This document shows, piece after piece, positions 31,281 to 36,946 of a stretch of 64,000 nucleotides of DNA. Below the pieces are notes generated by a model. It ran no database searches. It saw nothing but the letters and a program-made list of their open reading frames with translations, and had not been told where the DNA came from. Both the position numbers and the translations under genes were made by a program. The DNA is taken from assembly GCF_004367585.1 (NCBI RefSeq), contig NZ_CP038015.1:3106001-3170000 (forward strand), in the 5' to 3' direction. Source of the stretch: Paenisporosarcina antarctica. GTDB lineage: Bacteria > Bacillota > Bacilli > Bacillales_A > Planococcaceae. The first letter of the stretch is position 1. Each line of letters starts with the position of its first letter.

Positions 31281-31540
31281 AAAGGCAATGTTGCTGCGGG
31301 TGTACGTCCTTCTCTCCCCTTCAACCTTAACGTTTACAGATCTTTGATTTTGGTTTACTAGTGAATGGACACTTATTGCTTAGAAAGGAAGCCGCCGAAG
31401 ATACAATTTCGGCGGCTTGTTTCTAATTTTACAGTATTTATTTCTGCGTTATTTGAAAGAAGGGTTTCTCGGACTATTAAAGAAAGAATTCATAAACGTC
31501 GGTATAAGTAGACAATTTCGTTGAAAACCCCACAATGTAT

Positions 31541-31685
31541 TTACATTATTATCGTCAAAATACATTCCAAAATTTTACTATTACAACGTGAATCATGATA
31601 TTTACAACTTAGATGCCTTTTTTTACAACGTCATCCTCCATTTTTACAACGTGACAGCCAATAATTACAACTGAGCCCTCGCTCA
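31541..31685. repeat. 21-bp spaced intergenic array B (core TTACAACGT)
   Basis: TTACAAC starts at 31581, 31602, 31623, 31644 and 31665, every spacing exactly 21 bp. Decayed units with TTACATT and TACATTC precede at 31541 and 31561. The next two bases are GT in three units; the rest is unrelated between units. The final unit ends CTGAGC-CCTC-GCTCAG, a 6-bp hairpin like that ending array A. The array lies between the convergent 3' ends of the aspartokinase and ycsI-like genes; the rest of the 670-base gap (31122-31794) has no coding frame. Confidence 0.75.
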
Positions 31686-31720
31686 GTCTGCTATACATAG
31701 CATTTCAAAACCATGTTTAG

Positions 31721-36841: not shown

Positions 36842-36946
36842 TTTAATCCTGTTCGGAAGTTATTTATTCCGGTTCGCAGTCGCTTTATTCCAGTTCAAGC
36901 TGTGTTTATTCCTGTAAAACTAGAGTTTAATCCTGTTCGCCCATAT
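36842..36946. repeat. 21-bp spaced intergenic array C (core TTTATTCCTGTTC)
   Basis: Five units start at 36842, 36863, 36884, 36905 and 36926, each spacing exactly 21 bp. All five share TTTA, then A or T, then TCC, one variable base and GT; TC follows in four of five. The last eight or so bases of each unit are unrelated. It lies between two convergent small genes, right after the terminator of the left one. Confidence 0.75.

Follow-up and report, generated by a model that had tools for sequence, protein, structure and literature searches.

A phased TTACAAC array in Paenisporosarcina antarctica, a probable solo copy of a proposed two-part element of site arrays and NERD genes in Bacilli

Iterons and the ends of Tn7- and Mu-type transposons contain repeated sites about two helical turns apart that are bound by one protein. 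In the Bacillales, the bcr repeats of the Bacillus cereus group are dispersed intergenic repeats with traits of mobile DNA, and we know of no phased core array among them. The staphylococcal STAR elements, from the same order, consist of a short core, directly repeated between genes, and of spacers that are conserved less well; their copy number varies and their positions differ between species, as is also the case for the arrays described here (PMC3532100, in excerpt). The sections of that paper at hand give the function of STAR as unknown and name no cognate gene. REP sequences and BIMEs are numerous dispersed extragenic repeats tied to a type of gene, RAYT, whose product is a tyrosine transposase, and REPs are palindromic (PMC2817692 and PMC3116915, both in excerpt). 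Non-CRISPR interspaced repeat arrays with nucleases combine regular cores, variable spacers and an adjoining nuclease gene; that work mentions six systems, and the two that its text describes are of AddB-like and GGDEF types with expressed arrays; NERD is named there in the legend of a figure, among putative auxiliary genes of CRISPR (PMC10910872). Bacterial NERD domains were stated in 2022 to be almost unstudied (PMC9040797, in excerpt).

Here we analysed a window of 64,000 nucleotides from P. antarctica (contig NZ_CP038015.1, positions 3,106,001 to 3,170,000), which contains an array of regularly spaced short cores, array B (Table 1). A sequence-only reading of the window had described five TTACAAC cores between convergent genes, followed by a small hairpin. 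The cores were found again, starting at 31581, 31602, 31623, 31644 and 31665, as were the hairpin and the convergent open reading frames (ORFs) on either side. In 20,000 single-base shuffles of the 673-bp gap between these ORFs, no TTACAAC pair ever arose at 21 bp. The TTACAAC units are direct, and the terminal hairpin is the only palindromic part of array B. GT directly follows three of the five cores. The two decayed units that had been placed upstream, at 31541 and 31561, are without support in the family: at 31561 other copies carry a conserved but different lead, TTCCATAATTTAACTA, and the stretch at 31541 aligns with TTTCACAT, which is weakly conserved and stands at varying distances from the array. 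A further dispersed repeat, GATTTTGGTTTACTAGTGAATGGACACTT, lies at 31338-31418 on the + strand and is followed by a terminator-like GCCGCCGAA...TTCGGCGGC hairpin; a sequence similar to this repeat recurs reversed after the arrays of three other loci (L031-L033).

Table 1. Array B, its parts and the second array in the window (positions are those of the window)
Feature	Positions	Strand	Remarks
Array B (class 1), five TTACAAC cores, four 14-bp spacers	31581..31671	+	21-bp steps; core columns 0.983 identical in 20 copies
Conserved 5' lead of class-1 array, family consensus TTCCATAATTTAACTA	31565..31580	+	column identity 0.86, 16 columns, 20 copies
Terminal hairpin CTGAGC-CCTC-GCTCAG	31671..31686	+	3' end of most family copies keeps TGAGC-NNNN-GCTC
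Class-2 array, five units TTTAWTCC-NN-TTC, fourth diverged	36842..36938	+	21-bp steps

The genome of the window (G000, 3.97 Mb) contains about 27 dispersed copies of a family, here called class 1, to which array B belongs. These copies occupy 28 rows and were counted as 27 because the two rows of L056 were taken as one split copy; at L056 (2493-3960) a class-1 copy is apparently split by an insertion of about 1.4 kb with two ORFs, which looks IS-like by eye. Two TTACAAC cores at 21 bp gave 81 matches in this genome, compared to 1 for the reversed control pattern, and when the gap was left free (11-41 bp) all 68 exact core pairs were spaced 21 bp. The sole exception in spacing that we saw was L054, whose first two cores are mutated and whose first step is 22 bp; four other copies are one 21-bp unit shorter. 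Twenty of the 28 rows were aligned, omitting the four four-unit copies, the variants L038 and L041 and the two L056 rows, and column identity was 98.3% in the cores, 78.2% in the spacers and 60.6% and 47.5% in the 8 columns outside each side. The triplet preceding each core is 90% conserved across class-1 copies. With a spacer identity of 78.2% between copies, spacers that are unlike within an array can still be aligned between arrays, so the claim that the spacers share no sequence stands inside array B and falls between family copies. Homology between copies fades outside the array, and in the part of the flank alignments that was inspected by eye we saw no sharp element end and none of the terminal inverted repeats or target-site duplications of a MITE or IS.

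The family is unevenly distributed: G000 has 51 three-core class-1 matches, and each of the other eight genomes of the genus has between 0 and 7. In the genome collection at least 120 stretches contain three TTACAAC at lag 21; 80 of them were inspected, and outside the Planococcaceae most of these are heptamer microsatellites, coding repeats or ordinary minisatellites. Four cyanobacterial stretches (L058, L061, L065, L082) are 21-bp minisatellites in which the spacers are repeated together with TTACAAC, and at a few loci outside the Bacilli (for example L086, L092, L112 and L114) three or more TTACAAC at 21 bp are separated by unlike spacers. A NERD profile gave no match in L057-L136. The sequence-only reading knew of no named repeat class of this kind in Bacillales, which is too strong a statement, as the loosely similar STAR exists. 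The TTACAAC core and 21-bp step of array B are nevertheless different from the 14-bp GC-rich core T(G/A/T)TGTTG(G/T)GGCCC(C/A) and the 40-44-bp spacers of STAR (PMC3532100, in excerpt), and the resemblance is one of looks only.

The 21-bp rhythm is shared by arrays with other cores. An excess of lagged cores in intergenic DNA, which the sequence-only reading had named as a check, was present in 464 kb of G000 (20 evenly spaced stretches plus the window, whose two arrays are counted): lag 21 gave 11 noncoding regions, whereas no other lag between 14 and 33 gave more than 2. A second detector, run on a 400-kb sample of this genome, found 9 arrays at 20/21-bp steps, 4 at 18/19, 1 at 24/25 and none at any further step that was tried; extrapolated from this sample, G000 would contain about 90 arrays. 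Random stretches of three relatives (140 kb) contained no noncoding arrays, so array density differs between genomes. A second family, class 2 (TTNAWTC-SNN-TTC), gave 90 pattern matches in G000 and 0 for its control, with steps of 21 bp (65) and 20 bp (16) and none else between 14 and 34. The class-2 array in the window has, by eye, a small + strand ORF and then a terminator-like hairpin on one side and a - strand ORF on the other. Whole class-2 elements stand in tandem at 233-237 bp at L304, L300 and L301 (G000 3058174, 2540014 and 2780765), at which each array is immediately preceded, in the reading direction of the leading strand, by what looks by eye like a terminator hairpin. Near-alike class-2 arrays lie a few hundred bp past the 5S gene of five rRNA operons (L287, L292, L293, L308, L309).

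At two loci of G000, a gene of about 320 codons is flanked on either side by class-2 arrays; the Pfam model identifies this gene as NERD (PF08378; 49.9 and 55 bits, cut-off 22.1). The model matches five G000 genes. Four adjoin 21-bp arrays, whose four cores differ although two resemble each other; the fifth gene is of another architecture and has no array beside it. NERD genes were found in all of twelve further genomes (57 matches), every one of which had been picked because the array pattern had matched it. Across these relatives and G000, 26 of 35 NERD loci have a lag-21 array, whereas any other lag between 15 and 30 is present at 0-2 of them; the 26 include L339, where the lag-21 match looks coding and a looser detector also scores an array.

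To remove this array-based selection, a profile built from 17 NERD proteins (A2) was run on 398 genomes of Bacilli. At E <= 1e-20 it matched in 87 of them, belonging to 45 of 145 genera, often several times per genome, with at most five candidates scored in each. With all loci then scored in one run, an array of at least four units at 20/21-bp steps was found near 72 of 78 loci with the full NERD-zinc-ribbon architecture and, with the same detector, near both truncated genes and none of the six genes with other or partial NERD architectures; these are plain counts. Control steps of 16-19 and 22-31 bp scored at 0-1 of the 78 loci, and of the background windows, 135 in all, 6 had arrays at 20/21-bp steps and 4 at 18/19-bp steps. 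Where loci had been chosen independently of arrays, 43 of 47 carried them: 26 of 27 from the A2 class-wide survey and 17 of 20 from a further set, all outside the window's family. The nearest array lies within 150 bp of the NERD open frame in 56 of 74 loci, and arrays flank both sides of the gene at 27. These counts depend on the detector. A strict version (10-mer, at most one mismatch, long-frame arrays excluded) scored arrays at 32 of the 82 loci with the full architecture and gave nothing at control steps; it was replaced, because cores contain variable columns, by a 13-mer that scored 60 or 72 of 78 with 3 or 4 mismatches. Among the six loci missed at 4 mismatches, L340, L350, L371 and L393 show arrays in the lag-21 scan, and L394 and L395 show none there either. 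The set of 78 drops L362, L364 and L367 as repeats of L330, L354 and L351, counts one gene twice (L199 and L355) and includes several close orthologues, such as L341/L342 and L335/L338/L357. In-frame stops, one or several, are present in quite a few of the NERD-zinc-ribbon matches listed for Bacilli.

The proteins, of about 320 residues, combine a zinc ribbon with a NERD domain that carries the PD-(D/E)xK motif set. All 17 sequences in the alignment share G43, G46, E47, D82, E95, K97, P126, Q129, G230, C233, C236, C246 and C249 without exception. This is a complete PD-(D/E)xK set (E47, D82, E95-x-K97, Q129), which places these proteins in that superfamily by sequence as putative nucleases, together with the four cysteines of the zinc ribbon. 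By eye, a conserved stretch at the C-terminus resembles a helix-turn-helix. Structure prediction from the single sequence of one NERD protein gave a mean pLDDT of 31.7, and a sequence search with one such protein returned no solved structural relative.

Proteins that are closely related share their cores. The mean core score is 9.8 for the 12 pairs that are at least 60% identical. Where the two proteins come from different genomes and are 54-63% identical, scores of 5-10 are reached; at 47-49% identity there are two pairs, with scores of 0 and 3, and below 40% (233 pairs) core similarity is absent, at about 1.9. Over 23 of the 25 loci (L331 and L353 left out), a Mantel test of protein against core gave r = 0.16, with 37 of 2000 permutations as high; the correlation is weak overall and informative among close pairs only. 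Joint inheritance of gene and array could by itself be the reason why related proteins share a core. The six proteins beside arrays with a CAAC core form one clade (support 100/99), and their cores are TTACAACTAAA (L172, labelled Bacillus sp. FJAT-22090, and L202), TTCCAACTAAA (L361), TTCCAACTTGG (L336) and CAACCTGGA (L352, and L331 as a fragment). Judged by its letters, the array B core TTACAACGTG fits this CAAC clade. In G000, no NERD gene lies beside any TTACAACGTG array, and therefore what ties array B to a protein is the similarity of its core to the TTACAACTAAA arrays beside genes in other species (L172 and L202, environmental Psychrobacillus-type bacteria). The single CAAC-clade member in G000 is a gene with stops, and the next matches are only 23-27% identical. 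Array B itself consists of cores at 21-bp steps with no gene beside it, and it may be an orphan, given that the only CAAC-clade gene of this genome is broken.

Alignment of homologous loci in relatives had also been proposed as a check. Between L185 (G128) and L186 (G133), 338 of 352 core letters (96%) and 150 of 320 spacer letters (47%) are kept, and both flanks are 78% identical. Together with the fact that only the core recurs within an array, this upholds the earlier view that array B is not an ordinary tandem duplication. L185, L186 and G133:C2:97472-98091 are parts of one orthologous locus, where TTACAACTAAA elements stand in tandem at about 143-163 bp; one genome has two copies there, the other about five. 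A second orthologous site is occupied in G072 by a solo class-2 array and in G000 by two arrays, a NERD gene and two further arrays. Both loci were found via class-2 patterns, so the array that they have in common is not a fair sample, and it is the presence or absence of the gene that is informative. At a third site (L043/L313), G000 has a TTACAAC array and G075 has, in the same gap, five units with another core (TTTATCGCTC type), in a stretch that had been chosen on account of a different array. A fourth site (L042/L313), whose flanks match only partly, has no array in G075, and at a fifth (L294/L244) G075 carries irregular class-2 units that fall below the four-unit detector. Downstream of the gene next to array B, G076 carries a different array, with core TTCCGACGTCA, and no array was found in G072, G074 (L212, by eye only) or G075.

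The arrays are oriented with respect to replication. With dnaA of G000 at 3.797 Mb and the terminus taken as the opposite point, 29 of 30 class-2 rows and 22 of 28 class-1 rows lie on the strand opposite to the leading strand, counts in which not all rows are independent because rRNA copies and tandem copies are duplicates. The bias is also seen in convergent gaps, where gene direction is uninformative (8 of 8 class-2 and 8 of 11 class-1 rows); 228 of 310 ORFs in the G000 sample (73.5%) are on the leading strand. One class-1 and four class-2 rows were scored as divergent, and those four, with one further row, follow rRNA operons, where ORF calls beside the arrays are spurious and gene context is unreliable.

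We consider that array B is probably a solo, gene-less copy of a two-part element. One part would be the NERD protein, with its putative nuclease centre, zinc ribbon and HTH-like C-terminus, and the other the array, mostly of 4-6 short cores, which this protein would recognize. With one core per two helical turns, bound protomers would lie on one face of the DNA and cooperative binding would be possible, the spacers serving distance only. Cores differ from one protein clade to the next, and that of array B would be recognized by a protein of the CAAC clade. The arrays would spread selfishly within a genome as solos between genes, mostly past gene ends and in a preferred orientation to replication; the likely route would be nuclease-dependent cutting and recombination between arrays, much as REP needs the RAYT enzyme. 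The sequence-only reading had proposed cooperative, one-face binding by a chromosomal protein. That would fit the spacing, and a candidate type of protein has been found, but such arrays appear to be more than sites for a chromosomal protein, as they accompany a nuclease-type gene. A wider proposal, which we put forward tentatively and regard as rather less likely than the solo-copy reading, is that this is a widespread selfish system of Bacilli in which the gene is copied from an array-gene-array arrangement into solo arrays by homing-like break repair, solos are left when the gene is deleted by recombination, and escape occurs by a switch of core.

Alternatively, the arrays could be part of host chromosome architecture, maintained as binding sites at gene ends, and the NERD protein a host factor for DNA organization or repair. 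BIMEs bind gyrase and other proteins. The orientation of the arrays relative to replication speaks for such sites, with no more than 73.5% of the sampled ORFs on the leading strand, and five class-2 copies follow rRNA operons. The L043/L313 gap carries different cores in two species, as if sites had been kept while cores changed, and the same gene end has different arrays in G000 and G076; predicted curvature of arrays is also higher than that of shuffles. Sites kept for the host should hardly vary as widely in number within one genus as the three-core matches do, however, and close relatives differ in cores, several genes of the family are broken and some related species have no array at the same gene end (L211, L213). 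We regard this explanation as unlikely, although it is the strongest of the alternatives. An improbable one is defence or addiction, in which the NERD nuclease would attack foreign DNA, chromosomal arrays would hold or titrate it or mark self, and core change would reflect an arms race. The PD-(D/E)xK set, the very variable cores and the several paralogues per genome would suit it, and NERD domains do occur in defence proteins, with weak matches here to PglW, NERD+UvrD and MADS6 models. However, when four proteins were run against defence models none passed the cut-off (the best and single NCBIfam match at 29.4 bits against 460; PADLOC E values of 0.001-0.009), and viral contigs contained no relative of the one NERD protein searched. 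A phage or plasmid origin of array B was rejected on this last result and on the lack of a match for array B in phage or plasmid collections.

That array B is a functionless decayed tandem repeat or minisatellite is very improbable. Whole elements do stand in tandem, at about 143 or 235 bp, and the four shorter copies lack one 21-bp unit, as minisatellites might. Against this, the core alone recurs within an array and is kept in orthologues far better than spacers and even flanks, and in most other genomes TTACAAC at lag 21 is of the ordinary type: a microsatellite, a coding frame or a repeat whose spacers recur as well. Least credible of all is a structured RNA or a coding heptad repeat. A step of 21 nt equals seven codons, some frames are open by eye and a single-sequence fold has z -3.1, but none of 9 consensus-fold pairs shows a compensatory change in 20 copies and there is no Rfam match at gathering level, and an RNA element was rejected on these grounds. 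Coding heptads were rejected by eye, as some units hold stops and the open frame differs between classes.

The arrays resemble REP and BIME in being many dispersed extragenic repeats tied to a gene type, and differ in having a NERD/PD-(D/E)xK protein and direct phased cores where REP has a tyrosine transposase and palindromes (PMC2817692 and PMC3116915, in excerpt). Neither a Y1 enzyme beside the repeats nor a palindromic unit was found: the Y1 (HUH) transposase model PF01797 matches two loci in G000 (2724269 and 3752493), neither at a listed class-1 or class-2 array locus, and an IS200/RAYT transposase was rejected on this basis. Unlike iterons and Tn7 or Mu ends, the present arrays are direct, are dispersed as solos and flank a NERD gene, and no terminal inverted repeats were seen in their flanks. 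Among the matches listed in open PubMed Central papers, including PMC9040797, PMC6563490, PMC4057527 and PMC10910872, the excerpts at hand contained no link between NERD genes and repeat arrays, and among the matches listed for the core word none concerned bacterial repeats by title. The occurrence of these arrays with NERD genes across many Bacilli points to an undescribed system of an enzyme and its binding sites. As a candidate DNA target for each protein can be read from the genome, NERD function becomes directly testable. A protein-core pair that diversifies fast at a fixed spacing of two turns would also lend itself to work on the evolution of DNA recognition. Should the nuclease drive the spread, this would be a second enzyme class for elements made of repeats and an enzyme, beside REP/RAYT, and if the homing-like selfish system is true, it would give zinc-ribbon NERD proteins their first function.
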